Source: Flammeovirgaceae bacterium BBD 1991-12
GTDB taxonomy: Bacteria; Bacteroidota; Bacteroidia; Cytophagales; Cyclobacteriaceae
Direction of reading: 5' to 3'
Length of the DNA: 64,000 nucleotides
Assembly (NCBI GenBank): GCA_001657315.1
Contig: LYSV01000006.1
Location: forward strand, 1 to 64,000
This document shows positions 21,918 to 29,489 of the stretch, piece after piece. The translations under genes were made by a program, and so were the position numbers. The notes under the pieces were generated by a model. It was not told the origin of the DNA. It did not search any database and saw nothing but the letters and a program-made list of their open reading frames with translations. The stretch's first letter is position 1, and each line of letters begins with the position of its first letter.

Positions 21918-22345
21918 ATATTTCGCCTTGCAATAGCATAATAAGGCAACCTGATCATCATCCCAATCCTTAATCCAAACAAAACAATACCTTTCGGTTC
22001 AGTTAACAGTTAACTGCTACCTTGTATATGCCAAGAGAGAGGTGCATTCTGCAAATAACAGTATCTTTTAGGGGGTAGTTTTGTTATCAATGCTCTCTTT
22101 GCTGCCTGAAACCACTCTTTCGTCTGTCAAGTAGGAGCTGCAGGTCATCAAAAGAATCCATACACTGACTAAAAGCATATGTCTGGTTGAATTGGAAGGA
22201 GTGTTTCATCATGAAGTGCCCCTTTCTGTATTATATTCCCATGCTAAAGGCCAGGGCAGCATACGTAATTAATCCGCTGTGTCAAACTATGTATTGTGTA
22301 TCTTGTATGTTCATCTTTTTCCCTTTAGCTTTACTTCAATAAAAA
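21918..22345. other. non-coding stretch ahead of the TPP riboswitch
   Basis: No gene can be supported here. The stretch is AT-rich and holds stop codons in all frames. It should contain the promoter for the riboswitch-controlled operon, but I could not place a convincing one. Confidence 0.5.
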
Positions 22346-22420
22346 CACGGGGTGCTTGAGTAATGCTCAGGCTGAGATTAGACCCGAAAACCTGATCTGG
22401 ATAATACCAGCGGAGGGATT
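22346..22420 (+). promoter_or_regulatory. TPP (thiamine pyrophosphate) riboswitch
   Basis: The conserved THI-box segments appear in the right order and spacing. They are GGGGTGC (P1/P2 side), GGCTGAGA (pyrimidine-sensing T-loop strand), ACCC (P2 return), ACCTGATCTGGATAATACCAG (pyrophosphate-sensing P4/P5 arm; two bases differ from the usual text) and GCGGAGGGA closing P1. A variable P3 hairpin (GCTTGAG/CTCAG) lies between. The element ends about 84 bases before the first gene of the downstream operon on the same strand, so TPP should lower expression of that operon. The off-state structure in the expression platform was not resolved. Confidence 0.95.
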
Positions 22421-22503
22421 GTTCGTCATTTCACATCGTTATATCATCCCCACCACTTTCAGTATTGTTGCCAGTATCAGGTGAGTTCAAAGCTTTACTG
22501 ATT

Positions 22504-23229
22504 ATGGGTAATATAACAAAACAAAAATTTGATCTGGCTACCGGGGAGCTGAGGAACTGGCAGGGCCGAAAGGAGTGGTTCTTCAACCGCGACCATACCG
22601 ACACTTATGAACTATGGTACGAAGGCCGGTATAAGCGTGCTGAGATCTGGCAAAAGAAAATAATCGGTGACCTTGTGAGGCCTGATCCCCGGGTGAAAAC
22701 CCTGCTGGAATTTGGCTGCGGTACCACCCGTTTCACCCGCTGGTGGCATGAAATAGGCATACAGGCCAGCGGCGGCGACATATCTCCTTTTATGCTGGGG
22801 CAGGGCGTCCACCTGTTCGATGGTGACCTTGTGCTGGCAGACTCGCATCATATGCCTTTCAGGGATCATACCTTCGATGCGCTGGCATTTATCACCACCT
22901 TCGAGTACTACAGAGATCCGGTAAAGGTGATACGTGAGGCAGTCAGGGTGGGTAAATATGGCGTTGTATTTGGTATGATGAACAGAAATTCACCCAAGGT
23001 GGTCCGGAGAAGGGTTCAGCAGGTATTTGGTAAAAATCCGTTCTACATCACAGCTACCTTTTATACACCTAAAAAGCTGATCGCTATCATAGATGAGGCG
23101 CTGGCCGGAAGGGATTATGACATTCGATGGAGAGCCACAGGATTGCCGAAATGGTTTCCCCAACAGGAATGGAACCAACCATACGGAGATTTTTTTGGAC
23201 TGTACGTTCAATTAAGGGATACGGAATGA
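22504..23229 (+). CDS. SAM-dependent methyltransferase, first gene of the TPP-riboswitch operon
   Basis: About 241 residues, class I methyltransferase fold. Motif I is TLLEFGCGTTRFTRWW (about 66-81). The SGGDISPFML strand holds the ribose-binding acidic residue, and ADSHHMPFRDHTFDAL is motif III/IV. The C-terminal half has an unusual basic and aromatic stretch (PKVVRRRVQQVFG, LPKWFPQQEW). The start is placed at ATG 22504; an in-frame start at 22465 would add 13 poorly coding residues. It overlaps the next gene by four bases (ATGA). A Trm112-like protein, a known type of methyltransferase activator, is encoded at the end of the same operon. The substrate is unknown but, given TPP control, may be a thiamine-related compound (inference). 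Confidence 0.86.
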   Translation: MGNITKQKFDLATGELRNWQGRKEWFFNRDHTDTYELWYEGRYKRAEIWQKKIIGDLVRPDPRVKTLLEFGCGTTRFTRWWHEIGIQASGGDISPFMLGQGVHLFDGDLVLADSHHMPFRDHTFDALAFITTFEYYRDPVKVIREAVRVGKYGVVFGMMNRNSPKVVRRRVQQVFGKNPFYITATFYTPKKLIAIIDEALAGRDYDIRWRATGLPKWFPQQEWNQPYGDFFGLYVQLRDTE

Positions 23230-24290
23230 GCGCTTTTGAAGATAATACGGGTAAGGTCTCAGTGTCAACGTTCAAGGATATTCTGTTGCCTAACTGCGGT
23301 CATGAACGGCAAGAAGTGCTTACAGGCCCTTCCTTTGGGGTAGACACCTCTGTGATCGCCCTTGGAAACGGAAAGGCTATGGCCGTCTCCAGCGATCCGC
23401 TTACGTTGATCTCTTCTATTGGCATGGAGGCTTCGGCATGGCTGTCGGTCCAACTGACGGTCAATGATATGGCTACGACAGGCATGGCACCGCAATACGC
23501 CCAGTTTGTACTCAATCTGCCTTCAACATTATCACTGGCATCGTTCAGGGAATATTGGGAACATATCCATCGACTTTGCAAAACGCTGGGTATAGCTATT
23601 ACAGGGGGACACACCGGGCAAATTGAGGGGCAAAACTCAACGATATCCGGAGCAGCCACGATGTTTCTCACAGGCCCTGAGACAGATATGATCACCAGTG
23701 ATCATGCTCGCCCTGGAGATGTGATCGTGGTCACGAAAGAGGCCGCGCTTACGGCTACAGCCATTCTGGCCATGTGTTATCCTGAAACCGTTAAAAACGG
23801 ATGTGGTACAGAAGTTTACCGGGAAGCATGCGAGAATTTCTATCGTACCTCTTCCCTTCAGGATGCACTCCTTGCCACAGAAGTGCTTACACCCAATGTA
23901 GAGCTAAGCGCCATGCATGATGTGACCGAAGGAGGACTGCTTGGAGCAATCAGCGAAATGGCTATAGCTTCAGGCTGCGGTTTCCTGGTCAACACTGATC
24001 TTCTACCCGTGGGCCCGGCGGTGTGTGAAGTAGCCCGTATTTTTGAAATTGATCCGCACCTCTGTGTAGGAGCGGGCGCCATGATCATGGCGGTAAAGGA
24101 AGGTGAAGAGCAGCGGCTCATCAATCATCTGACGGCACATAACATAGATGCCACAGTGGTTGGGAAATTCCAGCATCCCGAAGAAGGCTGCAGGATACTT
24201 GAAGGTGACAGGGGAAAATCCTTTACCTTCGATGGCAGGGACCCTTACTGGGAGGCATTTTTCAGGGCCTTTAACCAGGGGCTGAAATGA
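23226..24290 (+). CDS. AIR-synthase-related (PurM/HypE/ThiL fold) protein
   Basis: About 354 residues with the two-domain PurM-like fold. An early GVDTSVIALGNGKAMAVSSD segment corresponds to the phosphate/metal-binding part of AIR synthase, HypE and ThiL. VQLTVNDMATTGMAPQYA then matches the dimer core, and HDVTEGGLLGA is the C-terminal domain hallmark. ThiL (thiamine-monophosphate kinase) has the same fold, but its N-terminal DDAA-type motif is not seen; the sequence is nearer the HypE-like 'AIR synthase-related' group. Under a TPP riboswitch and next to a ThiE-like gene, an ATP-dependent step on a thiamine-related compound is plausible. ATGA overlaps join it to both neighbours. Confidence 0.85.
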   Translation: MSAFEDNTGKVSVSTFKDILLPNCGHERQEVLTGPSFGVDTSVIALGNGKAMAVSSDPLTLISSIGMEASAWLSVQLTVNDMATTGMAPQYAQFVLNLPSTLSLASFREYWEHIHRLCKTLGIAITGGHTGQIEGQNSTISGAATMFLTGPETDMITSDHARPGDVIVVTKEAALTATAILAMCYPETVKNGCGTEVYREACENFYRTSSLQDALLATEVLTPNVELSAMHDVTEGGLLGAISEMAIASGCGFLVNTDLLPVGPAVCEVARIFEIDPHLCVGAGAMIMAVKEGEEQRLINHLTAHNIDATVVGKFQHPEEGCRILEGDRGKSFTFDGRDPYWEAFFRAFNQGLK

Positions 24291-24937
24291 AAGAACAAAA
24301 GATCAAACTCCATGGGGTCTACATGGTATTGGACTCCTCTACAGAACGGGGTACATTACTCACCAGACTCGAAGAGGCACTGCAGGCCGGAACAGGTATT
24401 GTGCAGGTATGGAATAACTGGCGCCCGGGGTCTAAACCAGAGGAAAAAAAAGAACTGATCGGGGAAATACTCTCCGTGGCGCTGCCCTTCGACATACCGG
24501 TGCTGATCAATGAGGAGTGGCAATGGCTCATCCAGACGAACCTTCACGGTGTGCATTTTGACAACATACCGGACAATTTTAACGAGATCCGGGAACAGGT
24601 CGGTCCTGACTGCCTGATCGGACTCACCTGCGGGAATGACATGGCAAAGGTCCGGTGGGCTGAGCAAAACTCTCTGAGCTATGTGTCTTTCTGCTCCATG
24701 TTCCCTTCCCGCTCAGTAGATAGCTGTGAAATTGTGAGTCCCGGTTCGGTCAGGAAGGCGCGGGAGATCACACAAATGCCTGTATTCCTATCCGGTGGCA
24801 TTCTGCCTGAAAATCTGGACAGCTTCGGTGAGCTGGATTTTCAGGGGGTAGCCGTCATCTCCGGGATCATGGATTCAGGATCAGTAACCAAAAGTGTATT
24901 GGCGTACCACGAAGCGCTTGAAAAAATAAAGAAATAA
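24287..24937 (+). CDS. divergent thiamine-phosphate synthase-like (ThiE/TenI fold) protein
   Basis: A 216-residue TIM-barrel protein of the ThiE/TenI superfamily. The phosphate-binding end is kept (FLSGGILPENLDSF, then GVAVISGI), and NLHGVHF and SYVSFCSMFPSRS stand where ThiE has its GVHLGQ and GPIFPTxTK motifs. The HMP-pyrophosphate-binding motif QLR(E/D)K near the N-terminus reads QVWNNW (40-45), losing both the arginine and the lysine, and the NDR motif reads NEE. ThiE couples HMP-PP with thiazole phosphate; with these changes this protein may use another substrate or be a TenI-like relative. The start overlaps the previous stop, and the next gene begins three bases after its end. Confidence 0.82.
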   Translation: MKEQKIKLHGVYMVLDSSTERGTLLTRLEEALQAGTGIVQVWNNWRPGSKPEEKKELIGEILSVALPFDIPVLINEEWQWLIQTNLHGVHFDNIPDNFNEIREQVGPDCLIGLTCGNDMAKVRWAEQNSLSYVSFCSMFPSRSVDSCEIVSPGSVRKAREITQMPVFLSGGILPENLDSFGELDFQGVAVISGIMDSGSVTKSVLAYHEALEKIKK

Positions 24938-24940
24938 GTC

Positions 24941-25207
24941 ATGAAAAGATCATTGATCCATAAACTGTGTTGTCCGGTGGACAAAAGTGAGCTGGAACTA
25001 CAGGTATTCAAGGAAGACAAAAACGGGGAGATCACCGATGGGCTGTTCACCTGCCCAAAATGCCGGCGATATTATCCGATCATTTATGGGTTGCCGATTA
25101 TGACCCCTGACGAATACCGGGAAAAATCGCTTGAGACGCCTATTCTGAAAAAGTGGGGCTTAACCCTGGATCAAAATGATCCGGAAAGGTTTTTATTGGA
25201 GGAATAA
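24941..25207 (+). CDS. Trm112-like small zinc-ribbon protein
   Basis: An 88-residue protein of the Trm112 type. It has LCCPVDKSELEL at the start (C10, C11), CPKC (C38, C41), then the typical RYYPIIYGLPIMTPDE ending of the zinc ribbon and a C-terminal extension of about 30 residues. Trm112 proteins stabilise and activate SAM-dependent methyltransferases in eukaryotes and archaea. Its place at the end of an operon that starts with a methyltransferase suggests that the two form a pair (inference). Confidence 0.85.
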   Translation: MKRSLIHKLCCPVDKSELELQVFKEDKNGEITDGLFTCPKCRRYYPIIYGLPIMTPDEYREKSLETPILKKWGLTLDQNDPERFLLEE

Positions 25208-26955: not shown

Positions 26956-28293
26956 ATGGCTATGGTCACAACTCAAAGAAAAATCCAGCATCTCTTTCTC
27001 AGGGCAGGATTTGGTGAAAGTCCTGAAACCATCCGGTCCTTTGCTGAAAGGAACATTCCGGATCTTGTGGACGAACTTCTTGAACGATCCTCACAGTCCA
27101 GTGAACTTCATACACTCAAAAATCCGGTAAGAGGTGAAGAGGCCTCCAACCTGAGAATAGCGCTGATGATCCTCCGTTCAAAAAAGCAGGTGAAAGAGTT
27201 GAACCTGGCCTGGCTTGAAAAAATGGCAGAAGAGTCCGCCCAGCTACGAGAGAAAATGACACTCTTCTGGCATGGTCATTTTGCCACCCGAGTGCCCTTT
27301 GCATACCTGATGCAGGTACAAAACAATACGCTGCGACAACATGCCCTTGGCAGCTTCCGCGACCTGCTACACGCTGTGGCCAGGGATCCCGCCATGCTGA
27401 TCTTCCTGAATAACCAGCAGAACAAAAAGGGCTCCCCCAACGAAAACTTTGCTCGTGAGTTGATGGAATTATTCACCCTGGGAGAAGGACATTATACTGA
27501 ACAGGATATCAGGGAAGCCGCGCGGGCATTCACCGGATGGCAAGTGAATAAAGGAGGAAAATTTGAGTTCAACGCGAAACGACACGACTTTGGCGACAAA
27601 ACCGTATTCGGTCAGACCGGCGACTGGAACGGAGATGATGTGATCGATATTATTCTTGACAAGCCACGAACTGCAGAATTTATTACTGAAAAGGTCTACA
27701 CCTATTTCGTGAATGAGCAGACTGATCCGCAGCGTATTAAGGAACTCGGCGAGCAATTCTTTGCCAGCGATTATGACATCAGTGCACTTTTGGCCGGCAT
27801 ATTCAAATCAGACTGGTTTTATGATGAGGGAAACAGAGGTAACAAAATTGCTTCCCCTATTGAGCTTTTGGTGCGGTATCGCCGCTTGTTCCATTTGAAA
27901 CTTAGTGATGATGAGCTATGGCTTGGCAGCCAGCGTATACTCGGACAGATGCTGTTCAACCCTCCCAATGTAGCCGGGTGGCCGGGAGGTAGAAACTGGA
28001 TAGACAGTTCATCGCTAATGTTCCGGTTAAATCTGGCGCCGCTCTTTTTTGAATACCAGAAGGTGGATAAATGGTCCGGCACCCGAGCCGACTGGACAGT
28101 ATTGTACAATACTTTTGAGAACCTGGAACCTGAAGAGTTGGTATCTGAAGTTACCCACGCCTTGTTACAGACGGATATTAGTGACAAACATACCCTTATC
28201 ACCCGTCAGCTATTACCACATACGGACTCGAAGGAAAGGATAAAAAGCGCTGTGGTCCGTACAATGATGCTCCCTGAATTTCAACTGATCTGA
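26956..28293 (+). CDS. DUF1800 domain-containing protein
   Basis: A 445-residue protein of the DUF1800 family. The typical segments are LFLRAGFGESPE at the start, MTLFWHGHFATR (near residue 105), NQQNKKGSPNENFARELMELFTLGEGHYTEQDI (near 155-187) and NPPNVAGWPGGRNWID (near 335). The biochemical role is not known. DUF1800 genes nearly always precede a DUF1501 gene, as here, with a gap of two bases. No classical signal peptide is evident. Confidence 0.92.
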   Translation: MAMVTTQRKIQHLFLRAGFGESPETIRSFAERNIPDLVDELLERSSQSSELHTLKNPVRGEEASNLRIALMILRSKKQVKELNLAWLEKMAEESAQLREKMTLFWHGHFATRVPFAYLMQVQNNTLRQHALGSFRDLLHAVARDPAMLIFLNNQQNKKGSPNENFARELMELFTLGEGHYTEQDIREAARAFTGWQVNKGGKFEFNAKRHDFGDKTVFGQTGDWNGDDVIDIILDKPRTAEFITEKVYTYFVNEQTDPQRIKELGEQFFASDYDISALLAGIFKSDWFYDEGNRGNKIASPIELLVRYRRLFHLKLSDDELWLGSQRILGQMLFNPPNVAGWPGGRNWIDSSSLMFRLNLAPLFFEYQKVDKWSGTRADWTVLYNTFENLEPEELVSEVTHALLQTDISDKHTLITRQLLPHTDSKERIKSAVVRTMMLPEFQLI

Positions 28294-28295
28294 TC

Positions 28296-29489
28296 ATGCA
28301 AGTAAACAGAAGAGAATTCCTGAAAAGCAGTTCACTGGCCTCTACCGCCTTGTTTATACCACGTTTCATACAGGCCTTTGACCATCAATCCTCCAGTCAT
28401 AATGGTAAAGTGCTGGTAGTAATACAGCTCTCCGGGGGCAACGATGGTCTGAATACGATCATACCGTATCAGAATGATCTTTACTATCAGTCACGGCCAG
28501 CCCTCGGACTTAAGGGCAATGACCTGATCACCATGACGGACGAAGTAGCCTTTCATAAAAACATGGGTGATTTTGCTTCTTTGTTTGATAATGGTGAGGT
28601 GAGCATTCTGAACAGTGTGGGATATCCCAATCCCAACCGTTCCCACTTCCGGTCGATGGATATCTGGCAAAGTGCCAGCGATGCCGATAAATACATTCCC
28701 ACAGGCTGGGTGGGCAGATTACTGGACAACAACTGCCAGGATATCCCTTATGCCAATGCACAGGCACTCGAGATCAATGATACGCTCAGCCTTGCAATGA
28801 AAGGCCGTGAAGTTAAGGGACTGGCGCTGCAAAACCCTAAAAGGCTGTACCGTACTACACAACATCCATGGCTGAAAACACTGGCGACGGAAACTGATCA
28901 CCCTCATGACCAGGCCGCATACCTGTACAAAACCCTCACAGAGACCACATCTTCTGCAGAATATCTCTTCGAGAAGTCGAAGACCTACAGGAACAAGGTG
29001 AGTTATCCGGATCATGAGCTGGGTAAGCAACTGCATCAGGTAGCACAGTTGATCAATTCCGGGATCTCCACACGGATCTATTATGTTTCACTATCCGGTT
29101 TTGATACCCATGCAGGCCAGAAATGGCAGCAGGCCCGGCTACTGAAGCAATACAGTGAAGCGTTGAAAGCGTTTACCAGTGACCTGAAAGCTGCCGGCCG
29201 GTTTGATGATACCCTTATTATGACGTTTTCAGAGTTTGGCAGAAGGGTGAAACAGAATGCAAGCGGTGGCACGGACCATGGAGCTGCCAACAACCTTTTT
29301 CTGGTAAGTGGCCAACTTAAAAAGCCCGGGTTGTTCAATGCTCTGCCGGACCTGTCCGATCTGGACAACGGAGATCTGAGGTATACGATCGACTTCCGTC
29401 AGGTATACGCTACCATCATTAAAAAGTGGCTGGGGTACGATCCGGTGAGTGTACTTGGGAAAGGATTCAGCACCCTTGACATTGTGTAA
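28296..29489 (+). CDS. DUF1501 domain-containing protein, predicted Tat export
   Basis: A 397-residue protein of the DUF1501 family, related to the sulfatase/alkaline phosphatase-like fold. The N-terminus has a twin-arginine signal (NRREFLKSSSLASTALFI). It then has VVIQLSGGNDGLNTIIPY, the family's opening motif, LNSVGYPNPNRSHFRSMDIW, and later SGFDTHAGQ and FSEFGRRVKQNASGGTDHG, the conserved histidine and aspartate motifs. It is probably folded in the cytoplasm, perhaps with a metal, and exported. It is paired with the DUF1800 gene just upstream; the joint function is unknown. Confidence 0.93.
   Translation: MQVNRREFLKSSSLASTALFIPRFIQAFDHQSSSHNGKVLVVIQLSGGNDGLNTIIPYQNDLYYQSRPALGLKGNDLITMTDEVAFHKNMGDFASLFDNGEVSILNSVGYPNPNRSHFRSMDIWQSASDADKYIPTGWVGRLLDNNCQDIPYANAQALEINDTLSLAMKGREVKGLALQNPKRLYRTTQHPWLKTLATETDHPHDQAAYLYKTLTETTSSAEYLFEKSKTYRNKVSYPDHELGKQLHQVAQLINSGISTRIYYVSLSGFDTHAGQKWQQARLLKQYSEALKAFTSDLKAAGRFDDTLIMTFSEFGRRVKQNASGGTDHGAANNLFLVSGQLKKPGLFNALPDLSDLDNGDLRYTIDFRQVYATIIKKWLGYDPVSVLGKGFSTLDIV

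Follow-up and report, generated by a model that had tools for sequence, protein, structure and literature searches.

A TPP-riboswitch operon of four genes that probably encodes an undescribed way of obtaining vitamin B1 in Bacteroidota

The genome of Flammeovirgaceae bacterium BBD 1991-12 (GenBank assembly GCA_001657315.1) contains, within the 64,000-nucleotide stretch analysed here (contig LYSV01000006.1, positions 1 to 64,000 of the forward strand; hereafter the window), a thiamine pyrophosphate (TPP) riboswitch followed by four closely packed genes for a methyltransferase, a protein resembling aminoimidazole ribonucleotide (AIR) synthase, a ThiE-like protein and a Trm112-like protein. Their products probably allow the cell to obtain vitamin B1 by a route for which we found no description. 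The operon is linked to a TPP riboswitch in all 34 cases in which upstream DNA was available (the window, 26 further loci and seven sampled genomes), and nearly all of the searched genomes bearing it appear devoid of the standard thiamine pathway. A preliminary description of the window had proposed an undescribed thiamine-related route; a conserved, riboswitch-linked operon in genomes without the standard pathway strengthens that proposal, whereas the compound handled, the target of methylation and the ATP-dependent step are what we infer below.

A TPP riboswitch and four genes conserved across Bacteroidota

Rfam, open reading frame (ORF) and Pfam analyses of the window placed the riboswitch and the four genes as follows, lengths being given in amino acids (aa):

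22338-22436, + strand: TPP riboswitch (THI element, RF00059); cmscan 68.8 bits, gathering score 54.3, model positions 1-105 in full
22504-23229, + strand: S-adenosylmethionine (SAM)-dependent methyltransferase, 241 aa; Pfam Methyltransf_11, 3.4e-14
23226-24290, + strand: protein of the AIR-synthase/ThiL/HypE/SelD superfamily (AIR-synthase-like), 354 aa; Pfam AIRS, 8.8e-12, and AIRS_C, 2.5e-20
24287-24937, + strand: ThiE/TenI-fold protein (ThiE-like), 216 aa; Pfam TMP-TENI, 1.3e-28
24941-25207, + strand: Trm112-like zinc-ribbon protein, 88 aa; Pfam Trm112p, 5.8e-7

RF00059 was the sole Rfam family with a match reaching its gathering threshold in the window. The first three genes are joined by two ATGA overlaps and the Trm112-like gene begins 3 bases after the ThiE-like gene, exactly as first described. 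The methyltransferase start is the ATG at 22504; the ORF list opens this frame at a TTG at 22465.

Relatives were sought by scanning genome contigs with the AIR-synthase-like protein, a scan that required exact short peptides and may miss distant relatives and other phyla. It returned 34 stretches, 27 of which encode a relative, all from Bacteroidota including Balneolales according to the record titles; hosts include Pontibacter, Algoriphagus, Cyclobacterium, Rhodocytophaga, Nafulsella, Emticicia, Aquirufa, Psychroflexus, Marixanthomonas, Riemerella and others. The order methyltransferase, AIR-synthase-like, ThiE-like, Trm112-like is complete in 26 of the 27 loci, the 27th sequence starting within the second gene, and a TPP riboswitch above threshold lies immediately 5' of the methyltransferase gene in all 26 complete loci. 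Recurrence of a riboswitch and four ordered genes in 26 of 27 loci implies that the arrangement goes beyond chance. The preliminary description had suggested looking in Bacteroidota for co-occurrence of the four genes with the THI element, which was thus found, and had named confinement of the cluster to this genome as a reason to abandon its idea; the operon is present in 26 other loci. With starts picked by script, the genes mostly overlap or nearly so, and a single gap of 78-254 bases occurs in each of four loci (L007, L008, L018 and L027). Within 5 kb, the commonest gene family outside the operon is found in 10 of 28 clustered loci, five of them from Pontibacter. At L007, from Balneolales, a canonical thiL gene (290.7 bits) begins 22 bases past the Trm112-like gene.

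Within a phylum sample of 247 genomes, the methyltransferase was detected in eight, the window's genome included, at E 1e-60 or better, a limit that would miss more divergent forms. All seven further bearers have a TPP riboswitch match just 5' of the methyltransferase gene, that of G069 being under the gathering score at 47.8 bits, and in all seven the AIR-synthase-like and ThiE-like genes adjoin, Trm112 being outside that check. Pairwise identities of the four proteins correlate with one another (r 0.76-0.91), consistent with inheritance of the four genes as a unit. Searching plasmid records with the ThiE-like protein as query yielded 14 records, all below 60% identity and several annotated thiE.

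Thiamine genes in genomes bearing the operon

Thiamine genes were searched in 33 bearers, comprising the window's genome, the seven sampled genomes and 25 found via the loci, with L016 and L017 left out. The question whether bearers lack the standard pathway, already raised in the preliminary description, was answered in the affirmative: ThiG was found in none of the 33, and ThiC, ThiD above cut-off and canonical ThiE above cut-off in one each, which was the window's genome each time. The operon's ThiE-like protein is the only ThiE match at E 1e-8 in the other 32. ThiL is above its cut-off in all 33 bearers and thiamine pyrophosphokinase (TPK) is present in 13, so that 20 have ThiL without TPK, and every bearer has at least one TPP riboswitch above threshold. 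Five weak ThiG matches of 26.7-34.4 bits (Pfam cut-off 23), which span 48-113 of 247 positions and lie in frames of 264-318 aa, were taken to be other proteins; complete matches to ThiG in the phylum sample score 216-384 bits. A partial ThiD-family match in G203 (59.7 bits, under the cut-off) was also rejected as ThiD.

Operon and ThiG never occur together in the 247 sampled genomes (0/8 bearers vs 97/239 others; Fisher p 0.017, uncorrected for relatedness). Of the two TPP-forming enzymes searched for, ThiL and TPK, 20 bearers have only ThiL, which needs thiamine monophosphate (TMP). Yet canonical ThiE is missing in 19 of these 20, the exception being the window's genome, which leaves the operon as the foremost candidate for the source of TMP.

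Two thiL matches each were seen in G092, G211, G227 and G270, the better one at about 297-306 bits. The second scores about 246 bits in G092 and G270, and some 6 kb separate the better thiL of G227 from thiG; the second thiL type of these genomes may serve another role.

The window's genome (G000) has a separate thi locus on contig C21 (L004:7900-13700), where a second TPP riboswitch is followed by thiC-thiM-thiE-thiD. The earlier statement that the classical thi genes are absent therefore holds for the operon and fails for the genome. ThiG was not found in this genome, which apparently can make the pyrimidine and would rely on salvaged thiazole, Thi4 being outside the search. This locus, with thiC-thiM-thiE-thiD and no thiG, prompted the idea that the operon replaces ThiG as a supplier of thiazole only, which we rejected since 32 of the 33 bearers are also without ThiC, ThiD and canonical ThiE. 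The window and the thiC contig are similar in composition: GC content is 0.46 in the window vs 0.45 in this contig, and tetranucleotide correlations between the two are 0.897-0.912 vs 0.935-0.950 within the window. This is a weak test, as L006, from another species, gave 0.85-0.89, and the thiC contig may belong to the contamination that makes up 2.31% of the assembly. The operon itself as an assembly artefact was rejected, since it is conserved in other genomes.

Receptors and other genes linked to TPP riboswitches

A TonB-dependent receptor gene follows another TPP riboswitch match, distinct from that of the operon, in 31 of the 33 bearers. The tally comprises 20 of 20 regions in a first set and 11 more genomes, the window's among them; Pfam was run on four receptors and the remaining ones were assigned by mutual similarity. 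No riboswitch-linked receptor was found in G248, which has a single riboswitch, or at the weak match of G260. On contig C17 of the window's genome (L110:231-2699), a TPP match of 39 bits directly precedes the gene for an 822-aa TonB receptor that is 46% identical to another riboswitch-linked receptor, implying that TPP matches under the threshold can be genuine in this phylum.

Three TPK-less bearers (G256, G259 and G267) have a third, sub-threshold TPP match (46-48.5 bits) before a PnuC-family-like gene and a flavin monooxygenase relative (regions L104:286-2002; L106:246-1923; L105 245-1922, reversed strand); Pfam was run on L104 and L106, and L105 was judged alike from its ORFs. The closest PDB entry of the monooxygenase relative in L106 is Rv3094c, and this protein may be part of the operon's pathway. 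NCBIfam calls the two examined PnuC-family proteins nicotinamide riboside transporters.

In Catalimonadaceae JC749 (L078:2633-4548), two tandem NMT1/THI5-like genes follow a riboswitch-linked TonB receptor gene. The first protein, the one of the two that was searched, is nearest to PDB entries 4nmy and 3ix1, the latter binding N-formylaminomethylpyrimidine (FAMP); inspection by eye revealed no evident signal peptide. Relatives of this THI5/ThiY-like gene occur in just 2 of 33 bearers, for which reason supply of hydroxymethylpyrimidine (HMP) by a THI5-like enzyme was rejected.

A tandem arrangement was observed in G257 (Agaribacillus), where TPP matches at C32:376118-376239 and 376275-376373 (40.3 and 55.2 bits, the first sub-threshold) precede a TonB receptor gene.

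The ThiE-like and AIR-synthase-like proteins

The predicted structure of the ThiE-like protein (pLDDT 93.8) is closest in fold to Bacillus subtilis ThiE (2tps, TM 0.86), with TenI at about 0.75. Family cut-offs are not reached: the protein scores 84.5 bits against thiE TIGR00693 (cut-off 145.1; its counterparts in the other 32 bearers score 47.6-127.2 bits) and 35.4 bits against TenI NF005819 (cut-off 251). In ThiE, R59, K61 and K159 hold the diphosphate of HMP pyrophosphate (HMP-PP), D112 takes part in HMP-PP and Mg binding, and Q57 binds the pyrimidine. We mapped these residues, in B. subtilis numbering, onto 28 ThiE-like sequences via PDB alignments. In all 28, R59 is replaced by W or Y, K61 by N, H, S or T, and K159 by V, A, S, I or T, and D112 is P in 27 and a gap in one. 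Conserved throughout are Q57, a T at S130, the GG and S of the phosphate loops, and two cysteines, Cys136 and Cys147 (window numbering). The canonical ThiE of the window's genome retains all the mapped residues. Judged from these residues, the ThiE-like protein should bind a pyrimidine and a phosphate, but normal use of HMP-PP is improbable; loss of the HMP-PP-binding residues argues against its catalysing the ThiE reaction.

The AIR-synthase-like protein has a predicted structure with an AlphaFold pLDDT of 92.2, and its best Foldseek matches, ThiL (2.2e-22) and HypE (9.7e-22), are about equal. None of the NCBIfam cut-offs is reached, be it for ThiL (TIGR01379, 77.0 bits vs 184.15), HypE (74.7 vs 251.6), SelD (56.3 vs 125) or PurM (18.6 vs 236.35). 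The ND and GGHTG motifs are conserved in the alignment, the GDD and GGDT of ThiL read GVD and GGHT in the window protein, and nothing in it corresponds to the GGEDYELL of the window genome's ThiL. Relatives in this superfamily phosphorylate TMP or activate an amide oxygen, the latter as in PurM and HypE chemistry. The AIR-synthase-like protein is presumed to be ATP-dependent as well, and since its relatives do either, both a kinase and a ring-closing step are possible for it.

These features speak to two alternative explanations. According to the first, the operon holds divergent copies of ThiE and ThiL, accompanied by a generic methyltransferase, that perform the classical reactions. Resemblance to ThiE and ThiL in fold and family agrees with this, but both proteins fall below the NCBIfam cut-offs, all 28 ThiE-like sequences have other residues in place of R59, K61 and K159, and all 33 bearers have a canonical ThiL besides, which makes the explanation highly improbable. 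The second is a de novo or semi-de novo route, in which new chemistry would turn common metabolites into the thiazolium ring or even into complete TMP. Absence of ThiG from all bearers and of ThiC, ThiD and canonical ThiE from 32 of 33 would be explained by it, AIR-synthase relatives do close azole rings, and Cys136 and Cys147 of the ThiE-like protein could carry sulfur. However, two rings are a great deal for four proteins to build, none of the four is a known pyrimidine-forming enzyme, and uptake is suggested by the TonB receptor behind a TPP riboswitch in 31 of 33 bearers, so we consider such a route quite unlikely.

The methyltransferase and the Trm112-like protein

The first protein matches Methyltransf_11 with 53.7 bits (gathering score 21.2), as expected of a class I SAM-dependent methyltransferase, and the glycine-rich motif I (G70 C71 G72 T73) is invariant in its alignment. 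It is the most conserved of the four, with a mean pairwise identity of 74% (27 sequences) vs 44-55% for the others and a mean column identity of 79% (27 sequences). A PDB search with its profile found several SAM methyltransferases, including BUD23. The Trm112-like protein reaches the gathering score of Trm112p (29.8 bits vs 22) and not the cut-off of Trm112_arch (6.5e-18; 64.7 bits vs 77); C11, C38 and C41 are invariant, and the best PDB profile match is chain H of 6zxw (5.8e-14). The BUD23-type matches of the methyltransferase and the TRM112-like matches of the fourth protein come partly from one PDB entry, 6g4w. A methyl-transfer complex of these two proteins had been suggested in the preliminary description; on sequence grounds the pairing of the families is plausible, the Trm112_arch score being the part that falls short.

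Strong conservation of the methyltransferase would also suit an operon that modifies thiamine or TPP, for example by methylation, to yield a derived cofactor, a storage form or an antivitamin, and bacimethrin clusters include methyltransferases. Control by a TPP riboswitch and a pathway missing in 32 of 33 bearers are better suited to thiamine supply, though, and no neighbouring gene family accompanies the operon in more than 10 of the 28 clustered loci. We therefore regard modification as very unlikely.

Surroundings of the operon in the window

A type I methionyl aminopeptidase gene follows from 25399, beyond a gap of 191 bases. Folding of 22338-22520 alone gave a z-score of -1.95, with 7 of 200 shuffles equally good, and neither this nor a scan for promoters and terminators around the riboswitch indicated anything firm about expression control. 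No tRNA genes were found in the window. The adjacent genes at 26956-29489, encoding 445 and 397 aa, look like a pair of the common DUF1800-DUF1501 kind.

A proposed salvage route ending at ThiL

Taking the riboswitch family, gene order, conservation, genome context and residue losses as observed, we infer a substrate, an order of reactions, a complex and a product, and lean towards a salvage or rebuilding route that would turn a thiamine-related compound taken up from outside into TMP or a near relative and end at ThiL. The receptor whose gene stands behind a TPP riboswitch would import the compound. The methyltransferase would act in complex with the Trm112-like protein, as the family pairing suggests, and the AIR-synthase-like protein would spend ATP, either phosphorylating the compound or activating a carbonyl or amide oxygen for closure of an azole ring. 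The residue losses of the ThiE-like protein suggest that it would bind a thiamine-type pyrimidine with a phosphate tail, not HMP-PP, and its Cys136 and Cys147 may be catalytic or carry sulfur. ThiL would then convert TMP to TPP, which would switch the operon off through the riboswitch. The likeliest substrate would be a damaged or partly degraded thiamine with the pyrimidine still on its nitrogen.

A more specific version, which we hold to be rather unlikely, has the AIR-synthase-like protein close or rebuild the thiazolium ring with ATP on a nitrogen-bearing pyrimidine such as FAMP or ring-opened thiamine, helped by the cysteines (as sulfur carriers or in acid-base catalysis) and a Trm112-activated methyltransferase step. 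This would yield TMP without HMP-PP or a separate thiazole and bypass ThiC, ThiD, ThiG and ThiE.

Several observations weigh against a salvage route encoded by the operon. Its largest gap is that the methyltransferase has no clear role in TMP formation. ThiG is missing also in 142 of 239 genomes without the operon. ThiL occurs in 177 of these 239 and is not specific; its association with the operon is weak (8/8 vs 177/239, one-sided p 0.095), and ThiL as a specific partner was rejected since it is common without the operon. Six members of the window's family (G049, G076, G111, G146, G186 and G194) have ThiL but neither ThiG, TPK nor the operon; canonical ThiE may be present in these six, and ThiL-bearing genomes without the operon may rely on a route independent of it. 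The counts of ThiC, ThiD and canonical ThiE refer to bearers alone, and other routes, through YjbQ, Thi4, TenA or unknown kinases, may exist beyond the enzymes surveyed. Seven of the 31 receptor-linked riboswitch matches (in G000, G249, G255, G263, G265, G266 and G268) are under the gathering score, at 34.3-51.5 bits. Finally, TPK shows no association with the operon (13/33 bearers vs 17/47 others, p 0.82).

Since TPK is about as common with it as without it, the operon is not simply a substitute for TPK, and this candidate was dropped as a general explanation. Also unlikely is a kinase role in which the AIR-synthase-like protein would convert imported thiamine to TMP and ThiL would complete the synthesis in place of TPK. 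ThiL without TPK in 20 of 33 bearers, the PnuC-family-like gene behind a sub-threshold riboswitch in three TPK-less genomes and ThiL as best fold match by E-value are in its favour; yet the operon would be redundant in the 13 bearers with TPK, NCBIfam names the two PnuC-family proteins as transporters of another compound, and the ThiE-like protein, methyltransferase and Trm112-like protein in fixed order would be left unexplained.

The salvage route would matter beyond these genomes. Exchange of vitamin B1 shapes microbial communities, and auxotrophy is usually deduced from missing thiC, thiG and thiE. Should the operon supply TMP, such scoring may be wrong or incomplete for a range of Bacteroidota, among them Pontibacter, Algoriphagus, Cyclobacterium and Balneolales, and enzymes with a novel way of handling the thiazolium ring or repairing thiamine would await study. 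The operon is small, is marked by its riboswitch and lends itself to tests in cultured strains.

Comparison with known systems

The component families are already known; the four-gene TPP-riboswitch operon was not found described. Literature searches, mostly of freely available papers, retrieved no description of the operon, of its riboswitch linkage across Bacteroidota or of its coincidence with a missing pathway. According to the sections consulted of Costliow and Degnan (2017, PMC5613172), Bacteroidota have a classical thiamine operon, thiSEGCHF-tenI, and uptake through OMthi, PnuT and Tnr3, where OMthi of B. thetaiotaomicron is a putative TonB-dependent thiamine transporter and PnuT a thiamine importer of the PnuC family; the word methyltransferase does not occur in the main text of that paper. 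The present system resembles these, as there described, in its upstream TPP riboswitch, a TonB receptor behind a TPP riboswitch, likened to OMthi by context and not by sequence, and ThiL as the last step. It differs in that the operon contains no ThiC, ThiG, ThiH, ThiS, ThiF or ThiD.

At the level of the proteins, the ThiE-like protein shares with ThiE and TenI the fold, the pyrimidine-binding Gln and the phosphate loops, but is without equivalents of Arg59, Lys61, Asp112 and Lys159, has two invariant cysteines and stays below both cut-offs. The AIR-synthase-like protein shares its fold with ThiL, HypE, SelD and PurM, but lies below each cut-off and differs from ThiL in its motifs. FAMP salvage in Bacillus proceeds through ThiXYZ-YlmB-TenA. 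Salvage of degraded thiamine is what we propose here too, and JC749 has two NMT1/THI5-like genes, one of them matching 3ix1, whereas just 2 of 33 bearers have relatives of these genes. With BUD23 and other Trm112-activated methyltransferases the operon shares family-level matches of the methyltransferase and the Trm112-like protein; unlike BUD23-type systems, it places this pair behind a TPP riboswitch, with no RNA or protein substrate indicated.

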